Counted from the stretch's first letter, positions 5,596 to 21,038 are shown. The stretch is 35,536 bases of DNA from Candidatus Muproteobacteria bacterium RIFCSPHIGHO2_12_FULL_60_33 (GCA_001785195.1 MFTB01000010.1:1-35536), one strand, 5' to 3'. Notes: a model not told the origin generated them from the letters alone. A program made the numbers and translations.

Positions 5596-6242
5596 AGATT
5601 GGCGGCGAGAGGATTGAAGAAATGGCGGCCGCTGCGAATCTTGCGGATGTGGGAGAGCAGTGTCTGGAAATCCGCCTCGCGGTCCACGATATTGATCCGC
5701 TCCGCGTTGACGACCAGCAAGGGCGCCGCCGTGTAGTGGTGAAAGAACTGGGTATAAGCGTCCACCAGGGTTTGCAGGTAATCGCGCTCGATGAGGCGCT
5801 CATACTCGACGCCGCGGCGGCGCACGCGCTCGTGCAGGACGTCCACCGGCGCTTGCAGGTAAATCACAAGGTCCGGCACCGGCAGGTTCAGGCTCATCTG
5901 GGCATATACCTGCTCATATAGTCGCAACTCATCGTCATCCAGGTTGGCACGCGCGAACAGCTTGTCCTTGTCGAGCAGGAAATCGGAAACATAACCGCTG
6001 CTGAACATGTCGCTCTGCTTGATCTGCTCGATCTGGCGCGCGCGTTGGAACAGAAAAAACAACTGGGTCGGCAGCGCAAACGACTTGCGCGACTGGTAAA
6101 ACCGTTCGAGAAAGGGATTCTCCTCCGGATGCTCGAGCAAGGGCTTGGCGCCGAAGACTTCCGACAGACGCATGGCGAGGCTGGTCTTGCCGACGCCGAT
6201 CGGCCCTTCGACAACGACATATCCTGGATTATTTATATTCAT
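5592..6242 (-). CDS. Deoxynucleoside kinase (dGK/dCK type)
   Basis: A 216-residue kinase of the deoxynucleoside kinase family (PF01712), which phosphorylates deoxynucleosides for salvage. The P-loop is GPIGVGKTS (13-21), followed by the substrate-site segment [14 protein letters not shown], a [12 protein letters not shown] helix, [22 protein letters not shown] (the DRS/LID region with the arginine-rich lid) and an [16 protein letters not shown] helix. Genes of this type between folK and panB are common in gammaproteobacteria. The specific nucleoside cannot be read from sequence. A 104-bp gap with a large palindrome separates it from folK; it overlaps panB by 4 bp. Confidence 0.88.
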
Positions 6243-6253
6243 ATTACTTTTGG

Positions 6254-6334
6254 AACCGCAGATGAACGCAGATCATGAATAAATAAAAACAGTACTTTGT
6301 CTTTATCCGCGTTAATCAGCGTTCATCTGCGGTT
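6254..6334. repeat. Palindromic element with 10-bp internal period (folK-dNK gap)
   Basis: Arms AACCGCAGATGAACGC (6254-6269) and its exact inverse (6319-6334) are perfect for 16 bp, or 20 bp with one mismatch. The right side consists of three consecutive 10-mers (ATCCGCGTTA, ATCAGCGTTC, ATCTGCGGTT, 6305-6334), so the arm is itself a tandem repeat. The central loop is AT-rich. The element fills most of the gap between folK and the dNK gene inside the operon and could modulate distal expression or mRNA decay. Confidence 0.85.
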
Positions 6335-6346
6335 TCTAAATTATTA

Positions 6347-6853
6347 TCAATCTTTTAGTCTTTCCACTCGTTGTCCCGTGCAAACCTTCAGTAATTCACG
6401 CAGCGCGCCGCGTCCCGGGACGATCAGATCGGGCTCGATTTCGTGCAAAGGATACAGGACGAAGGCACGTTCGTGGAGTCGCGGATGCGGAATGCTCAGC
6501 TCCTCCGTTTTTATCACCTGGTCGTCGTACAGTAACAGGTCGAGATCCAGCGTGCGCGGACCGCCCCTGTCCCCCTGCCGCACGCGTCCGTGCACGCGCT
6601 CGATTTCAAGCAGGTTCCGCATGAGTGCCGCTGGAATCAACCCGGTGCGTACACGGCAGACGGCATTGACGAAATCCGGCTGGTCACGCCATCCGACTGG
6701 CGCGGTACGATAAAGCGACGAACACACTTCGACGTGTGTCCGATTCAAGCGCGTCAGCGCCGTGACACCGGAACGTACCTGCGCCACGGGATCATCCAGG
6801 TTGCTGCCCAGACCGATATAGGCGCGCGCTGTATTTTCCAGTGGCTCACTCAT
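6347..6853 (-). CDS. folK: 2-amino-4-hydroxy-6-hydroxymethyldihydropteridine pyrophosphokinase
   Basis: Transfers pyrophosphate from ATP to the pterin in folate synthesis. The 168-residue protein starts MSEPLENTARAYIGLGSNL. GLGSNL (14-19), SSLYRTAPVG (45-54), QPDFVNAV (58-65) and the family signature RTLDLDLLLYD (100-110, with the two magnesium-binding aspartates) are present, followed by IPHPRLHERAFVLYPL. The start at 6853 was chosen from the family N-terminus; the open frame upstream is a shadow of pcnB. It overlaps the pcnB stop by 8 bp. Confidence 0.95.
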   Translation of the reverse strand: MSEPLENTARAYIGLGSNLDDPVAQVRSGVTALTRLNRTHVEVCSSLYRTAPVGWRDQPDFVNAVCRVRTGLIPAALMRNLLEIERVHGRVRQGDRGGPRTLDLDLLLYDDQVIKTEELSIPHPRLHERAFVLYPLHEIEPDLIVPGRGALRELLKVCTGQRVERLKD

Positions 6854-8310: not shown

Positions 8311-8386
8311 GCTCCCATCGTCTAGTGGCCCAGGACGCTGGCCTCTCACGCCGGTAACAGGGGTTCGAATCCCCTTGGGAGCGCCA
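8311..8386 (+). tRNA. tRNA-Glu (anticodon CTC)
   Basis: A 76-nt tRNA with acceptor arm GCTCCCA/TGGGAGC, discriminator G and encoded CCA. The anticodon stem CTGGC/GCCGG encloses CTCTCAC, giving anticodon CTC, which reads GAG. The T arm is CAGGG-GTTCGAAT-CCCTT-like with the standard TTCGAAT loop. A second tRNA-Glu with UUC should exist elsewhere in the genome. Confidence 0.96.
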
Positions 8387-8426
8387 AAACCAAAGAGGGC
8401 CCATAAAGGGCCCTCTTTGGTTTTGG
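8384..8426. terminator. Long perfect palindrome acting as bidirectional terminator
   Basis: Arms of 19 bp (8384-8402 and 8408-8426) match without error around the loop ATAAA. The left arm starts on the CCA of tRNA-Glu. Reading + strand, GGGCCCTCTTTGGTTTTGG ends in a T-rich stretch; reading minus, the same is true. It can therefore end both the tRNA-Glu transcript and the ankyrin gene transcript coming from the other side. Confidence 0.8.
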
Positions 8427-8439
8427 CTGACGCACCGAT

Positions 8440-10472: not shown

Positions 10473-10612
10473 TTGAAGGAAGCTCTGAATGAAATTGACC
10501 GCCAGGACGCCAGGAACGCCAGGTATGAGAATGCCCAAGAATCATTTTTCCTGGCGACCCTGGCGTCCTGGCGGTTCAGAATCATATTCATTTTGTTACA
10601 AGCTTTTCTTAA
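10473..10612. repeat. Palindromic element with 8-9-bp internal units (queD-sseA gap)
   Basis: The core arms 10498-10523 and 10550-10575 are 26 bp with two mismatches, and each is a tandem of GCCAGGAC/GCCAGGAAC-type units. The outer flanks are also related in inverse: TTGAAGGAAGCTCTGAA on the left and, on the opposite strand, TTAAGAAAAGCTTGTAA on the right. The same terminal motif (AAGGAA-NN-TCTGA) and the junction TTGAC before the arms recur in the element at 14874-15003. It lies between divergent genes, so it may affect both promoters. Confidence 0.85.
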
Positions 10613-10621
10613 GAGTATTTT
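10593..10621 (+). promoter_or_regulatory. Possible sseA promoter at the edge of the repeat
   Basis: TTGTTA (10593-10598), a 17-bp spacer and TATTTT (10616-10621). The predicted start near 10628 would leave a leader of only about five bases before the ATG at 10633. The -35 box and much of the spacer lie inside the right flank of the palindromic element. Consensus match only. Confidence 0.4.
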
Positions 10622-10632
10622 AAAGAGAAATC

Positions 10633-11448
10633 ATGACCCAACCTCTTGTGCGGCTGGTCGTGGAGCCGGCGGAGCTGGAAAAACATCTCGGCGCGGAAAA
10701 TCTCCTGATCGTGGACCTGTGCCGGCCCGAAACCTACGCGCAGGCCCACGTGCCCGGCGCGGTGCATCTGGATTACGCGCAAATCGTGGCCGCGCGGCCA
10801 CCCGCCATGGGCATGTTGCCGGATGCCGCGCCATTGAGCGACGTGCTCAGTTCCATCGGCATGACACCGGACCGTCATGTCGTGGCCTATGACGATGAGG
10901 GCGGTGGGCGTGCCTCGCGCCTGCTGTGGACGCTGGATGCCCTCGGCCATTCGCGTTATTCACTGCTGAACGGCGGCCTCCATGCCTGGCTCAATGACCG
11001 GCATGGGGTTAGCAACGAGCCCGTCAAGAAAGTACGGAGCGATTATACGGTGAAGTTTGACAACAAGGTCGTGGCCGACAAGAACTACATCATGAAACAC
11101 CTGCGCGACGCGGGAGTGATTATCGTGGACACCCGCACACCAGCGGAATATCGCGGCGAAACCCGGCGCGCGGAACGCACCGGCCATATCCCCGGGGCGG
11201 TCAACTTCGACTGGATGAACTCCATCGATCAGGCACGCAGCGTGCGTCTGAAACCGGCGGATGAGTTAAAACGGGTCCTGACCGGACTTGGCGTGACTCC
11301 CGACAAGGAGGTGATTACATACTGCCAGACACATCACCGCTCGGCACATACTTATATAGTGTTGAAAAGCCTGGGCTACCCGCGGGTGCGGGGCTATCCA
11401 GGCTCGTGGTCGGAATGGGGCAACAGCCCCGAGACGCCTATCGAATGA
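10633..11448 (+). CDS. Two-domain sulfurtransferase (rhodanese family)
   Basis: A 271-residue thiosulfate/3-mercaptopyruvate sulfurtransferase. The N-terminal inactive rhodanese domain (about 5-125) has D-x-C-x-P-E-x-Y (DLCRPETYAQAHVPGAVH) and YDDEGGGRASRLLWTLDALGH. The C-terminal catalytic domain (about 140-265) has DTRTPAEYRGE, GHIPGAVNFDW and the persulfide-forming C231 in the loop CQTHHRSA. This loop differs from both the TST form (CRKGVTA) and the MST form (CGSGVTA), so the preferred donor cannot be inferred. It ends YPGSWSEWGNSPETPIE as the family does. No signal peptide, so probably cytoplasmic. It is convergent with a small gene, overlapping by 11 bp. Confidence 0.9.
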   Translation: MTQPLVRLVVEPAELEKHLGAENLLIVDLCRPETYAQAHVPGAVHLDYAQIVAARPPAMGMLPDAAPLSDVLSSIGMTPDRHVVAYDDEGGGRASRLLWTLDALGHSRYSLLNGGLHAWLNDRHGVSNEPVKKVRSDYTVKFDNKVVADKNYIMKHLRDAGVIIVDTRTPAEYRGETRRAERTGHIPGAVNFDWMNSIDQARSVRLKPADELKRVLTGLGVTPDKEVITYCQTHHRSAHTYIVLKSLGYPRVRGYPGSWSEWGNSPETPIE

Positions 11449-11650
11449 AGGGCCAACCGGCGTCGCGGCGATAATCCTGTCTGTGGTTATCGGCCTGCGC
11501 CAACCGGCGCGCGGCACGATCGCGCAACAGCACGGCGTAGATATCCCCGACGTAAACCATCGCGGCCGTCTCCTGCCATCCGGCGTCATCCGTCTTGGCG
11601 GATGTCAGCGCCGACATTCTCGATTTAATGTTATTCAGCCACTTCTTCAT
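11438..11650 (-). CDS. Small hypothetical protein (70 aa)
   Basis: Starts MKKWLNNIKSRMSALTSA and is rich in basic and amphipathic helices, with ETAAMVYVGDIYAVLLRDRAARRL in the middle. I do not recognise a family. The start at 11650 is supported by a very strong Shine-Dalgarno (GGAGGGGGAGAA) directly before the ATG. The 3' end overlaps that of the sulfurtransferase gene by 11 bp tail to tail, which would allow antisense interaction of the two transcripts. Confidence 0.55.
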   Translation of the reverse strand: MKKWLNNIKSRMSALTSAKTDDAGWQETAAMVYVGDIYAVLLRDRAARRLAQADNHRQDYRRDAGWPFIR

Positions 11651-11741
11651 TTCTCCCCCTCCCCTCCACGCCGGTAATTCGGGCATCGCCATCATAATAA
11701 ATGGCAATTCCCGTGCCACTCACGGCGTAGATGAGAAATAA

Positions 11742-11888
11742 TCAACGAAACATGCTGATTTGAAAATTATTTCCTGAATAAAAATCCCACAGCGGCGAAT
11801 CACATGACCGGGATGAACGGTCGTAGTGTAAGATTCCGCTTACAGATTCATGCTGGCAATAATATCTCCTGCACAGGAATTTCCTCAT
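11742..11888 (-). CDS. Possible small ORF (48 aa)
   Basis: Begins MRKFLCRRYYC after a good ribosome-binding site (GAAGGAG, six bases before the ATG). The remainder has no recognisable motif, and amino-acid composition (C, Y, S, R) is not clearly protein-like. The 380-bp stretch 11651-12033 otherwise holds only AT-rich intergenic DNA. Kept mainly for the strong Shine-Dalgarno. Confidence 0.25.
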   Translation of the reverse strand: MRKFLCRRYYCQHESVSGILHYDRSSRSCDSPLWDFYSGNNFQISMFR

Positions 11889-12033
11889 CGCCACTCCTTC
11901 AGAAAAAATCTTGCTGCGATCAATCAAGGATTTAGCGCGTGCGTTGGGAATGATGCACGATTATCGCCACATCCGGTAAGATGTAAAAAGTCCCGACGAA
12001 ACATCATCAGATCAGAGCCGGGGTACTCTTATG

Positions 12034-12477
12034 ATGAATAACATCTGGATTCTGGGGGCCCATCGGGGGGTGCACGGCTTTTTGAAAACAAAGGACCCGG
12101 CAAGGGCCTGAACCTGCTGCATGACATCCCCCATCCCGCAGGCCGGCTGAAAAACAAGGACATCGGCGCCGACAAGCCCGGACGCAGCTTCGACAGCCGT
12201 GGACAGGCGCGCCATGCCCTGAGCTCCGAACAGGAACCCACGGAGCATGTGGCGGAACAGTTCGCCAGGCAACTGAGTTCGATGCTGGATGACGGACGCC
12301 ACCCGCAGCGCTACGGGAAACTCGTGCTGGTTGCCGAACAGCGCTTTCCGGGAAACCTGCGCGCTGCCTTAAGCCCGCCGACCGCCGCGCTCGTCACGGC
12401 AGCCGTGGACAAGGACCTGGGGGGGCGTGGACCCGCACCACGTGCCTAAATACCTGGGTGGCGTCATCCGGCTCTAA
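12034..12477 (+). pseudogene. Host-attachment-family protein (PF10116-like), two frameshifts in G tracts
   Basis: Joining three frames gives a normal-length family member of about 148 residues. MNNIWILGAHRG (first frame) continues as ARLFENKGPGKGLNLLHDIP, KPGRSFDSRGQARHAL, FARQLSSMLDDG and LVLVAEQRFPGNLRAALSP (second frame). It ends VDPHHVPKYLGGVIRL back in the first frame, with stop 12475-12477. The breaks are at a run of six G (12065-12070), which lacks one base, and a run of seven G (12419-12425), which has one too many. The family is annotated as needed for attachment to host cells, but its molecular role is not known. Sequencing error in homopolymers, phase variation or true decay all fit. 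Confidence 0.7.
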
Positions 12478-12489
12478 GCCGGATCCCAG
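12454..12489. repeat. REP-like palindrome after the host-attachment gene
   Basis: ATCCGGCT-CTA... paired with AGCCGGAT (12466-12473 and 12477-12484), with outer CTGGG/CCCAG. The GTCATCCGGC...GCCGGATCCCAG layout is like the short REP sequences found in many gammaproteobacteria. It overlaps the stop codon of the preceding gene and may act as a transcription terminator or mRNA stabiliser. Confidence 0.6.
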
Positions 12490-12630
12490 CGTTTACTGTT
12501 TCACCCGCCCTCCCGCCCGAACCGCCGCGACCGGGTGGTCCCTCCGTACCTGCCATAGAGCGATTCCCACCGCTAAAACCAAACTACACTTAGGCTAAAG
12601 CCTCAGCAGACGGGGCGGTGTCGAAATCTC

Positions 12631-14877
12631 ATGGATCAGCGGCAACTACGCGCGGAGGATCTCCTGCTTCTTCGGGAGAAAGCCTCGAAATACGCTCTGT
12701 ATGGTGTGTATATCGCCAGTACCAGTGTCGTCATCGCGACACTGCTGGTGAGTTACGTAATGCAAGGCGATATCACCCTCGATAGCATCATTCTCGCCCA
12801 AACCTCCAACATCGCCCTGTGGACCGTGGATGCCATGCCCTTCCTGTTCGCCATGTGGGGACAATACGCGTCCTACCGCATGGCGCGCGAAGCCGACGAA
12901 TTTGTGCAAACCAGAACCCAGTCGCTGCGCGAGGCGCTCACTCGCGCCGATTTCACCAGCAAGGCCAAAAGCGATTTCTTCGCCAAAATGAGCCACGAGC
13001 TGCGCACACCCATCAACAGCATTATCGGGATGAGCGACTTGGTGCTTGAGACAAAACTGACCAGGGAACAGCACCGTCACGTCGACATCATCAAATCCTC
13101 GGCCAGCGGCTTGCTCACCCTGATTAACGATTTGCTGGATTTCTCCAAGATAGAAGCGGGAAAGCTTGAGCTGGAAGAAATCGAATTCGACTTGCGCGAT
13201 TGCGTCGAAAAATCCGCCGCGCTGCTCGCACAACAGGCGCATGCCAAGGGACTCTCGCTCACCAATCTGATCCAGAACGACGTGCCCAGCCGCCTGCTCG
13301 GCGATCCTGGGCGCTTGCGGCAGATCATTATTAACCTGCTCGGCAACGCCATCAAATTCACCCCTACCGGCGAGGTTGTCCTGAGCGTCAAAAAGCTTCC
13401 CGACGAATCCAAGGGTCGAGTGCGGCTGCACGTGGAAGTCGCCGACACCGGCATAGGGCTCTCGGCAAAAGATCAGGCAAAACTGTTTCAGCCCTACAAT
13501 CAGGCGGGTACCTCAACGTCGCGTCGCTACGGCGGCACCGGTCTTGGTCTCACGATCAGCAAGGAACTGGTGGAAGCCATGGGCGGACAAATCGGCGTGA
13601 AGAGCCAGGAAGGCAAGGGCAGTGTTTTCTGGTTCACTGCCGATTTCCGCAAGCCTGCCGCGATGAGCGTTGTCCCTTCGCCCATGCGGATTGACCTCAA
13701 AGGATTGCGCGTACTGGTGGCTGACGGCAATTTCCCGGCGCGCGTGGGGCTGGTGGACCAGCTGAAAGCGCTGGGCCTGGAAGTGCAGTCCATCGGTAAT
13801 GGCAACGCGGCACTGCAAATGATTCGTTCCGCCGCCGGATCGGACTTCCACTTCGATCTGGTGCTGGTGGATATGTTCCTGCCCAACCTGAGCGGCGAAG
13901 AACTCGGGTGCGAAATCAAGTCACAGCCGGAAACACGCGATACCGTTCTGGTCATCCTGACCTCGGCGGGCGTGCGCGGCGATGCACAGCGACTGAACCA
14001 ACTCGGCTTTGCCGGTTACTTCGGCAAACCCATCCCTCCGGAAGACCTGCAAGATGCGTTGAAAGCTGTCATGGCGACCCGGTCCATGGATGAACAGGAA
14101 CGCCAGCGGACAGGCCTGGTCACCAAATACACGTTGTCCGGGATGCGCAAAAAACTCGCGCGCCTGCTGCTTGTGGAGGACAGCGACATCAATCAGGAAA
14201 TCATGCTGAAAATGTTGTCCAGATTGGGCTACTCGGCCGATATCGCGGAAAACGGACGTGTAGCCATCCACGCAGCGACGCACGAGGATTACGGCCTGAT
14301 TCTCATGGATCTGCATCTTCCGGATATCAGCGGAATTGAAACCGTCGAGGCCATCCGCGCCCTGCCTGGCGTGCGCGCCAAGGTTACGGTCGTTGTGCTC
14401 ACGGCGGGCGCATCGGATGAGGAAATAGCGCGCTGCCGCGCGCTGAAGGTCAATGATTTCCTGACCAAACCCATAGACAGCAACGTACTTGCCGACACCT
14501 TGAAACGCTACCAGATATCTCCGGTCTCCGCCGCGGAGGAAGCGCCGCCTTCAGACGGACCAGTTATTGCATCAGCCATGGAAAAAAGCGCCGTAGCAGA
14601 CTCTAAACTGGCTGAAATCTTCGTCAAGGAAGCCACGCAGAGACTGAGTTCACTGCATGAAGCGCTGGCCTCCAACGACGCCCTGCGCGCCGCGCGCGAG
14701 GCACATACCCTTAAAAGCTCAAGCGCCTACTTCCAGGCTGATGCCATGCATGACGCGGCGGCACGACTCGAGGAAATGGCGGACAGCGGGCAGCTCGGCA
14801 AAGCGAAACCGGTGCTGGAAAAACTCGAGGAAGCCTACGCCCGGCTGCGTGACAATCTGACAAGGAATAAAAATTAA
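12631..14877 (+). CDS. Hybrid sensor histidine kinase (TM-HisKA-HATPase-REC-REC-Hpt)
   Basis: A 748-residue multi-step phosphorelay kinase. Two membrane segments (about 22-43 and 57-77) enclose only a short periplasmic loop, so the signal is probably sensed in or near the membrane. HisKA has H122 in FFAKMSHELRTPINS; the ATPase domain has N239 (NLLGNAIKFT), DTGIG (272-276) and GGTGLGL (301-307). REC1 (about 359-480) keeps phosphoacceptor D414 and K466, but its acidic pair reads ADG instead of DD or ED. REC2 (about 511-627) is complete with E516, D517, D560 and K613. The Hpt domain (650-745) has H692 in HTLKSSS. No cognate regulator is adjacent; the REC-GGDEF-like protein at 19196 is a distant possibility. 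No strong Shine-Dalgarno precedes the ATG. Confidence 0.93.
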   Translation: MDQRQLRAEDLLLLREKASKYALYGVYIASTSVVIATLLVSYVMQGDITLDSIILAQTSNIALWTVDAMPFLFAMWGQYASYRMAREADEFVQTRTQSLREALTRADFTSKAKSDFFAKMSHELRTPINSIIGMSDLVLETKLTREQHRHVDIIKSSASGLLTLINDLLDFSKIEAGKLELEEIEFDLRDCVEKSAALLAQQAHAKGLSLTNLIQNDVPSRLLGDPGRLRQIIINLLGNAIKFTPTGEVVLSVKKLPDESKGRVRLHVEVADTGIGLSAKDQAKLFQPYNQAGTSTSRRYGGTGLGLTISKELVEAMGGQIGVKSQEGKGSVFWFTADFRKPAAMSVVPSPMRIDLKGLRVLVADGNFPARVGLVDQLKALGLEVQSIGNGNAALQMIRSAAGSDFHFDLVLVDMFLPNLSGEELGCEIKSQPETRDTVLVILTSAGVRGDAQRLNQLGFAGYFGKPIPPEDLQDALKAVMATRSMDEQERQRTGLVTKYTLSGMRKKLARLLLVEDSDINQEIMLKMLSRLGYSADIAENGRVAIHAATHEDYGLILMDLHLPDISGIETVEAIRALPGVRAKVTVVVLTAGASDEEIARCRALKVNDFLTKPIDSNVLADTLKRYQISPVSAAEEAPPSDGPVIASAMEKSAVADSKLAEIFVKEATQRLSSLHEALASNDALRAAREAHTLKSSSAYFQADAMHDAAARLEEMADSGQLGKAKPVLEKLEEAYARLRDNLTRNKN

Positions 14878-15003
14878 GGAAGGTCTGATTAATTATGATT
14901 ATTTGACGCCAAGGCGCAAAGAAAAAGCTCGGAAAAATAACTGAAAAAATCTTTGCGTCTTTGCGTCTCTGCGTTGAAAACTAATAAATCAGAGTTTCCT
15001 TAA
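14874..15003. repeat. Palindromic element with 8-bp internal period between convergent genes
   Basis: The outer arms (14874-14895 and 14982-15003, 22 bp, three mismatches) both begin with TTAAGGAA read inward. The inner arms (GACGCCAAGGCGCAAAGA, and TCTTTGCG-TCTTTGCG-TCTCTGCG on the right) are built from an 8-bp unit. The stop codons of the histidine kinase (TAA 14875-14877) and the aminotransferase (15000-15002) both fall inside the terminal TTAA. Terminal motif and TTGACGCC junction are shared with the element at 10473-10612. Confidence 0.88.
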
Positions 15004-16148
15004 AGATAATTCCGCAAACGCGACACGCCCTCGCGCAGATTCTCGAGCGTGTTGGCGTAGGAAAAGCGCACATGCTGCGCCGCCCGATGACTCCCGAAGT
15101 CGAGGCCCGGCGTGATGGCCACCCCGGTTTGCTCCAGCAGCCCGAGAGCAAAGGCCTGGCTGTCAGCGGTAAACCGCGAGCAATCCGCATATAAATAGAA
15201 GGCGCCTTGTGGGACCAGCGGGATCTCAAAACCCAGCTCACGCAAGGCCGGCAGAAGAAAGTCGCGCCTTTCACGAAAAACATCCCGACGGTTCTGCAAT
15301 TCCTGCTGCACCACGGCCTCGAAAGCGGCCAGCGCAGCGTATTGCGCCGGCGTGCTGGCGGCGAGAAAAATATTCTGGGCCAGTTTGTCGATGGCAGGGA
15401 CGTAAGAGATTGGCGCCACCATCCACCCCAGCCGCCAGCCGGTCATGCCGTAATATTTGGAGAAACTGTTCACCACGAACAGATTCTGCGAATGCGACAA
15501 CGCTGTCACCGCCTCTTCCCCGTAAACGAGACCGTGATAGATCTCATCCACGATCAATACTCCGCCCCGTTCTTCCACGGCCCGGACTATCTCGGCCATC
15601 CCATCCGGCGGAATAAGGGTGCCCGTGGGATTGGACGGTGAGGCCAGCAGCACGGCCACCGTGCGCCTGGTCCAGCGTCGGCGAACCAGATCGGCATTCA
15701 ACTGATATCCGGTCGAGGCATCCACCGGGATGGTCAGTGGCTCACCCTCGAACAGACTGACAAAATGGCGATTGCAGGGATAGCCAGGGTCGGCCATGAG
15801 CACCTGATCGCCCGGATTGATCAATGCGGCAAATATCAGTTGCAAGGCGCCGGAGGCGCCGGGCGTGACCACCACCCTGCCGGCATCCGGCCGAACATGG
15901 GCCGGATAGCTCGAGGCGATGGCGGCGCGCAGTTCCGGCAGGCCGAGCGCGGGGGTGTAATGCGTGTGCCCAGCCTGGAGCGCCGCGATGCCCGCCTGAA
16001 CGATCGCTGGCGCCGTGGGAAAATCCGGCTCGCCGATTTCCATGTGGATCACGGAGCGGCCCTGCAACTCCATGGCACGGGCACGGGCAAGAATATCCAT
16101 GACATGGAACGGTTCGATCTTCGAGAGACGCGCAGCGGTTGGGTTCAT
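15000..16148 (-). CDS. PLP-dependent aminotransferase, class I/II (fold type I)
   Basis: A 382-residue aminotransferase. MEIGEPDFPT is the N-terminal substrate loop, TPGASGALQL binds the cofactor phosphate, SNPTG is at 172-176, D201 in VDEIYHGL contacts the pyridine nitrogen, and K231 in NSFSKYYGMTGWRLGW forms the Schiff base. FSYAN near the end carries the substrate-carboxylate arginine region (HVRFSYAN). It belongs to the broad aspartate/alanine/aromatic aminotransferase group; the substrate is not determinable from sequence. The start overlaps the stop of the upstream phosphatase gene by 4 bp. Confidence 0.9.
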   Translation of the reverse strand: MNPTAARLSKIEPFHVMDILARARAMELQGRSVIHMEIGEPDFPTAPAIVQAGIAALQAGHTHYTPALGLPELRAAIASSYPAHVRPDAGRVVVTPGASGALQLIFAALINPGDQVLMADPGYPCNRHFVSLFEGEPLTIPVDASTGYQLNADLVRRRWTRRTVAVLLASPSNPTGTLIPPDGMAEIVRAVEERGGVLIVDEIYHGLVYGEEAVTALSHSQNLFVVNSFSKYYGMTGWRLGWMVAPISYVPAIDKLAQNIFLAASTPAQYAALAAFEAVVQQELQNRRDVFRERRDFLLPALRELGFEIPLVPQGAFYLYADCSRFTADSQAFALGLLEQTGVAITPGLDFGSHRAAQHVRFSYANTLENLREGVSRLRNYL

Positions 16149-20943: not shown

Positions 20944-21038
20944 AAAAAACGGGCCACAGAGGTCACAGAGTGAAAGCCTTTTTTTCCTATCTCTGTGTAC
21001 TCTGTGACCTCCGTGGCTAAAATCCTGGCTTTCATTTT
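20937..21038. repeat. Palindromic element with 9-bp internal units after the hypothetical gene
   Basis: Arms 20953-20971 and 20999-21017 are 19 bp with one mismatch (GCCACAGAGGTCACAGAGT). The right side is a tandem of CTCTGTGTA, CTCTGTGAC and CTCCGTGGC. Outer 9-bp arms AAAATGAAA/TTTCATTTT (20937-20945, 21030-21038) extend it; the left one contains the stop codon of the preceding gene. Same architecture as the other period-repeat palindromes but a different sequence. Confidence 0.85.

Follow-up and report, generated by a model that had tools for sequence, protein, structure and literature searches.

Palindromic elements of a Candidatus Muproteobacteria genome as probable IS5-type MITEs with exchangeable cores

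The contig of Candidatus Muproteobacteria bacterium RIFCSPHIGHO2_12_FULL_60_33 analyzed here (MFTB01000010.1, 35,536 nucleotides, hereafter the window) harbors two palindromic elements, at about 10473-10612 (element 1) and 14874-15003 (element 2). What kind of elements are they, and by what means would they have reached their sites? A preliminary description, made from the sequence alone, proposed that both share terminal motifs and that conserved ends around variable centres designate a non-autonomous mobile element. Both elements are present at these positions and element 2 is exactly as described, while element 1 departs from the description at its far end, as detailed below.

Element 2 measures 122 bp plus a TTAA duplication and sits between two convergent genes. 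Its components and neighbors are the following.

12631-14877, plus strand: hybrid histidine-kinase gene, flanking, upstream of element 2 (ORF)
14874-14877: left TTAA of the target duplication, which supplies the stop codon (TAA) of the histidine-kinase gene (sequence, ORF, duplication statistics)
14878-14893, plus strand: left terminal inverted repeat, GGAAGGTCTGATTAAT (pattern match)
14894-14983: core, made of AT-rich shoulders and an imperfect palindrome of CGCAAAG/GACGC units (sequence, hairpin z -4.4)
14984-14999, minus strand: right terminal inverted repeat, GGAAACTCTGATTTAT on that strand (pattern match)
15000-15003: right copy of the TTAA duplication, also the minus-strand stop codon of the aminotransferase gene (ORF, pattern match, duplication statistics)
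15000-16148, minus strand: aminotransferase gene, flanking, convergent with the histidine-kinase gene (ORF)

The ends read TTAAGGAAGGTCTGATTAAT at 14874-14893 and, as the inverted partner, TTAAGGAAACTCTGATTTAT at 15003-14984, which gives the layout TTAA-GGAAGGTCTGATTAAT ... ATAAATCAGAGTTTCC-TTAA. No ORF is confined to the element, and its hairpin folds far better than those of shuffled sequences.

The end motif is widely dispersed. AAGGAANNTCTGA occurs in 46 exact copies in the host genome, as compared to 1 for the reversed control, and these copies pair as facing ends with a spacing of about 100-300 bp. The window alone exhibits no enrichment: only three exact matches are found, and allowing 2 mismatches yields 6 matches for 5.4 expected. 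Among 369 sampled genomes of the class, 68 contain the 20-bp form of the end, the reversed control returning 0 matches in all of them, and the same ends occur in MAGs that bear the labels Deltaproteobacteria and Nitrospira. A contig labelled Candidatus Nitrosotalea, an archaeon (L203), also carries two such elements, a case of either inter-domain transfer or a contaminating contig.

The full end is YTAR-GGAANNTCTGATTWAT, the GGAANNTCTGATTWAT part being 16 bp long. In the host genome, all 23 pairs with both ends intact are bordered by identical 4-bp target duplications (13 TTAA, 7 TTAG, 2 CTAA and 1 CTAG), whereas 42% agreement is expected per pair and a score of 23/23 was reached by 0 of 1e5 permutations. 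Some copies exactly duplicate unusual tetranucleotides (TTGA/TTGA, CTGG/CTGG, TTGG/TTGG, TAAA/TAAA), which base preference alone would not yield. Among further elements, 23 of 40 display identical duplications, the discrepancies in the others being attributed to age. The 4-bp YTAR duplication is a known feature of the IS5 group of the IS5 family. A 2-bp TA duplication of the IS630/mariner type was considered and discarded, since all intact pairs agree over the 4 bp of YTAR. Besides these standard pairs, eight loci (L113, L179, L182, L204, L208, L219, L255 and L263) present ends that abut or nearly so, forming end-to-end palindromes of 34-35 bp that often make up the left portion of longer GCGGCAC-type elements. 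At L038 (480-804), a nested pair is observed, in which one element has inserted into the end of another.

Empty orthologous sites, which the preliminary description had called for in close relatives together with duplicated targets, were found in five congeners for each element. In the case of element 2 these are G007, G001, G002, G006 and G008, and their sites lack both the ends and the core. The empty site of G007 (L064) reads TTAGCTAA and is four bases longer than that of G001; the extra bases may have been left by an excision, or may just be ancestral. Other palindromes occupy the same site in G003 (L063) and G005 (L065), so that three congeners carry three different palindromes in one convergent gap; that of G003 may be a relative of element 2 that has decayed.

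The insertion site deserves attention: each TTAA copy of element 2 provides the stop codon of one of the flanking convergent genes. In congener G001 these genes share the tetranucleotide CTAA, in which their stops overlap. Where convergent genes ending in TAA or TAG overlap by 4 bp at their stop codons, the overlap reads exactly YTAR; insertion at such a site would thus spare both proteins. In 20 of 80 elements the duplication forms the stop of a 100-codon frame, whereas 12% of the YTAR sites in intergenic DNA do so (p 0.003); in 4 elements this holds on both sides, compared to 0.8% of these sites (p 0.01). Such a bias towards gene ends, together with the three palindromes that three congeners place in one convergent gap, would also fit the view that the elements are bidirectional transcription terminators maintained by the host and spread by vertical descent and gene conversion, and not transposons. 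This is extremely improbable, however, given that most congeners have empty sites, that target duplications border the elements and that near-identical units reside at unrelated sites. A role in termination may be secondary. Elsewhere in the window, a perfect 20-bp inverted repeat with a 5-nt loop (8383-8427), located just past a tRNA-like 3' end, is likely a terminator.

A scan of genome contigs for complete elements with the same ends identified autonomous partners. One is a 1179-bp element from Nitrospira (L227), flanked by CTAG/CTAG and bounded by the same GGAANNTCTGATTWAT ends, whose ORF encodes a 323-amino-acid transposase with DUF772 and DDE_Tnp_1 domains that matches the IS5-family model NF033581 at 1e-110. 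Two others, L262 (1178 bp) and L193 (1195 bp, CTAG/CTAG), possess GGAANNTCTGATTWAT ends and comparable full-length ORFs; intact IS5-family elements of 1.18-1.20 kb with the same ends and duplications are present in Nitrospira and other MAGs. Closer to the window, its order contains 1.19-kb IS5 elements that have YTAR duplications and whose ends differ slightly (GGMANNTCTGATYTAR), and in the same genus G003 retains a shortened copy of 429 bp, bounded by the same ends, in which an internal deletion has left an N-terminal fragment of the transposase (67% identical). The window's own genome (G000, an assembly 79% complete) yielded no intact transposase with these ends, and a PF01609 profile search in the genus returned no match flanked by them; the present absence of an intact partner from G000 is compatible with mobilization in the past. 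The view that these are non-autonomous mobile elements whose centres vary between conserved ends is borne out by the copies, the duplications, the empty sites and the autonomous partner. Element 2 shows several features of an IS5-family MITE: ends matching those of an autonomous element of the family, a 4-bp YTAR duplication, a short length without a transposase gene, dispersed copies and empty sites.

The diversity of the cores was unexpected. One and the same type of end encloses no fewer than a dozen palindromes that are unrelated to one another, in Gammaproteobacteria as well as outside this class. They include the CGCAAAG/GACGC units of element 2, GCCAAGA units, CGTC-REP dimers (GTCATTCC...GGAATCCAG), and the CCGTTCGTCCTGAGCTTGTCGAAGG, GTCATTCCGACCGAAGCGGAGGAATCT, CCCTCTCCC and GTAGGGTGCGTCC types, among others. 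Clustering of the cores at 55% coverage divided 135 elements into 51 groups; nested insertions inflate this number, but at least a dozen of the groups are plainly unrelated. When the ends are removed and the cores are compared to shuffled sequences, 82% have a z below -2 and 53% a z below -4. In six loci (L023, L025, L027, L033, L034 and L038), a second palindrome (GGAGCGGTACAGGGATGTACCGGTTGCGGAGC) is lodged inside one arm and adds about 41-50 bp, producing a hairpin within a hairpin. A structural-RNA explanation was dropped, as no Rfam structural-RNA family scored above threshold.

Could these be ordinary deletion-type IS5 MITEs, whose cores have simply diverged from the IS sequence? Deletion forms do exist, namely the 429-bp copy of G003 and the 106-bp forms of Nitrospira, the latter being among the non-palindromic exceptions. 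For the palindromic cores, this explanation is already contradicted: they are related neither to the IS interior nor to one another, they are palindromic in the proportion given above, and several are dispersed repeat families themselves (see also PMC3733652). As an account of the elements as a whole, it is unlikely.

Conversely, the cores might be the mobile entities, moved like REPs by another enzyme such as a RAYT, the GGAANNTCTGA ends being a preferred landing site. That GCCAGG/GCCAAG cores, the group to which element 1 belongs, occur with the other end type GAACCYCTAACAAAA as well as with GGAANNTCTGA ends (L094, L095; G381, G165) would fit such a scheme, as would the CGTC REPs known without such ends (PMC3733652). 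Yet the GGAANNTCTGA ends are enclosed by the target duplications, which already disfavors it; the empty sites lack both ends and core, the near-identical copies take in the ends, and a transposase gene is found between the same ends. The near-identical copies are particularly informative. Six CGTC-REP-core copies in G314 are at least 99% identical, and seven GCCAAG-core copies in G381 at least 98% identical, all at unrelated sites, with flanks about 47% identical, that is, random; copies with either core carry matching target duplications. Near-identical ends-plus-core copies in unrelated flanks indicate that ends and core move as one unit. The GTAG or CGTC tag on a palindrome of 20-40 bp that would assign the window's cores to the REP/RAYT type is lacking, CGTC cores being observed only in other genomes. 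Independent movement of the cores is very unlikely.

Taken together, element 2 is very probably a gene-less IS5-type MITE with an exchangeable palindromic core, mobilized in trans by an IS5 transposase, and element 1 a representative of a sister end type. The latter is organized as follows.

10476-10488, plus strand: left end of element 1, AAGGAAGCTCTGA (exact motif match)
10498-10575: core palindrome, formed by ACCGCCAGGACGCCAGGAACGCCAGG with its complement and representing a dispersed repeat family of its own (hairpin z -9.9; further copies elsewhere)
10591-10612, minus strand: right end, reading TTAAGAAAAGCTTGTAACAAAA on that strand, of a divergent GAACCYCTAACAAAA type (comparison with L158-L163)
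10633-11448, plus strand: rhodanese/sulfurtransferase-like gene, flanking, downstream of element 1 (ORF; orthologous region used for the empty sites)

The inverted pair of element 1 spans 10498-10523 and 10550-10575, and its hairpin also folds far better than shuffled sequences. The left motif is present as described, but the far end (10591-10612, TTTTGTTACAAGCTTTTCTTAA) holds no exact inverted copy of it. With the motif on the left only and a right end of GAACCYCTAACAAAA type, element 1 falls outside the GGAANNTCTGATTWAT end subfamily. Among the other aligned copies of its GCCAGGACG palindrome, most are devoid of AAGGAANNTCTGA and the fullest end in TTAA-GAACCYCTAACAAAA. The target duplication of element 1 is not clean, and its site is empty in congeners G007, G008, G002, G003 and G001. 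Element 1 belongs to the MITEs of the sister end type (GAACCYCTAACAAAA), as a recent insertion with another core. The two window elements have a common layout and a similar end type, but they fall into two end subfamilies. Two more palindromes of the window, at 6237-6351 and 20953-21017, are built of short repeated units (CGCAGATGAA and CACAGAGG types, respectively) with different outer ends; they probably represent other end subfamilies of the same layout.

As for the mechanism, an IS5 transposase would most likely act in trans on the two 16-bp GGAANNTCTGATTWAT ends and insert the element at a YTAR tetranucleotide, duplicating these 4 bp. The palindromic body would be swapped for unrelated palindromes while the ends stay unchanged, either by two ends capturing a palindromic repeat that already existed or through recombinational replacement, both routes being possible. 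The palindromic core may bring together ends that are 90-170 bp apart, and/or may make insertions tolerable to neighboring genes. A hint of the former role comes from the lengths of the elements, which cluster near 89, 110, 121, 130, 141, 151, 159 and 171 bp. Periodicity is strong on raw counts (best periods 10.2 and 9.85). It is moderate, though still significant, if a given length enters only once for each core cluster or each genome (p 0.0005 and 0.002). With cluster medians it is not significant (p 0.10), and it is absent if only the distinct lengths are considered (p 0.95). Steps of about one helical turn are only suggested by these data, as relatedness may explain the signal. In a wider and more tentative reading, to which we give somewhat less than even credence, IS5-type ends would be a general vehicle for orphan palindromic repeats (CGTC/dRS3-like dimers and the CCGTTCGTCCTGAGC..., ACCGCCAAG, CGCAAAG and CCCTCTCCC types): palindromes of suitable length would be captured and spread as a unit, with lengths limited to steps of about one turn, since the ends of so short a molecule would have to meet in phase.

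How do these elements compare to known systems? With IS5-family insertion sequences of the IS5 group (NCBIfam NF033581; Pfam PF05598 and PF01609), they share the ends, the YTAR target and the 4-bp duplication of the autonomous copies described here, whereas the window elements contain no gene and their core is palindromic and unrelated. Under the classification of PMC10969869, the element counts as a type II MITE. Type II bacterial MITEs (PMC10969869; Chunjie of Geobacter, and QMITE1/QMITE2 of Coxiella, PMC5896051) are likewise short, gene-less, intergenic and IS-related in their terminal repeats only. In the published descriptions, each such family has a single core in its species, whereas here one end sequence is associated with many unrelated cores, class-wide and beyond. 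MITEs with REPs are known, since QMITE2 of Coxiella contains a GTAG REP (PMC5896051). As to the CGTC-tagged REPs and neisserial dRS3 (PMC3733652), the CGTC-REP dimer is one core type in other genomes, the window's own cores being different. The same paper mentions longer palindromes of A. variabilis and H. neapolitanus that contain REP dimers, and concludes that a dedicated transposase is lacking for the CGTC REPs (PMC3733652), whereas the dimers observed here are framed by IS5 ends and target duplications. The open-access literature returned no description of this element by end sequence, inner units or IS5/YTAR MITEs, which is weak evidence as short strings match mostly primers, nor any report of one IS5-type end pair with many unrelated palindromic cores. 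Elements of this kind are already known. What may be new is how modular the core is in many bacteria, together with the connection to orphan palindromic repeats.

Small palindromic repeats are common in bacterial genomes and, for several families, their spreading route is not known. CGTC-type repeats framed by IS5-type ends, with duplications and recent near-identical copies, provide a concrete and testable route of movement. If this holds true, the hairpin would be unfit for naming such elements, and it is their ends that would have to be read.
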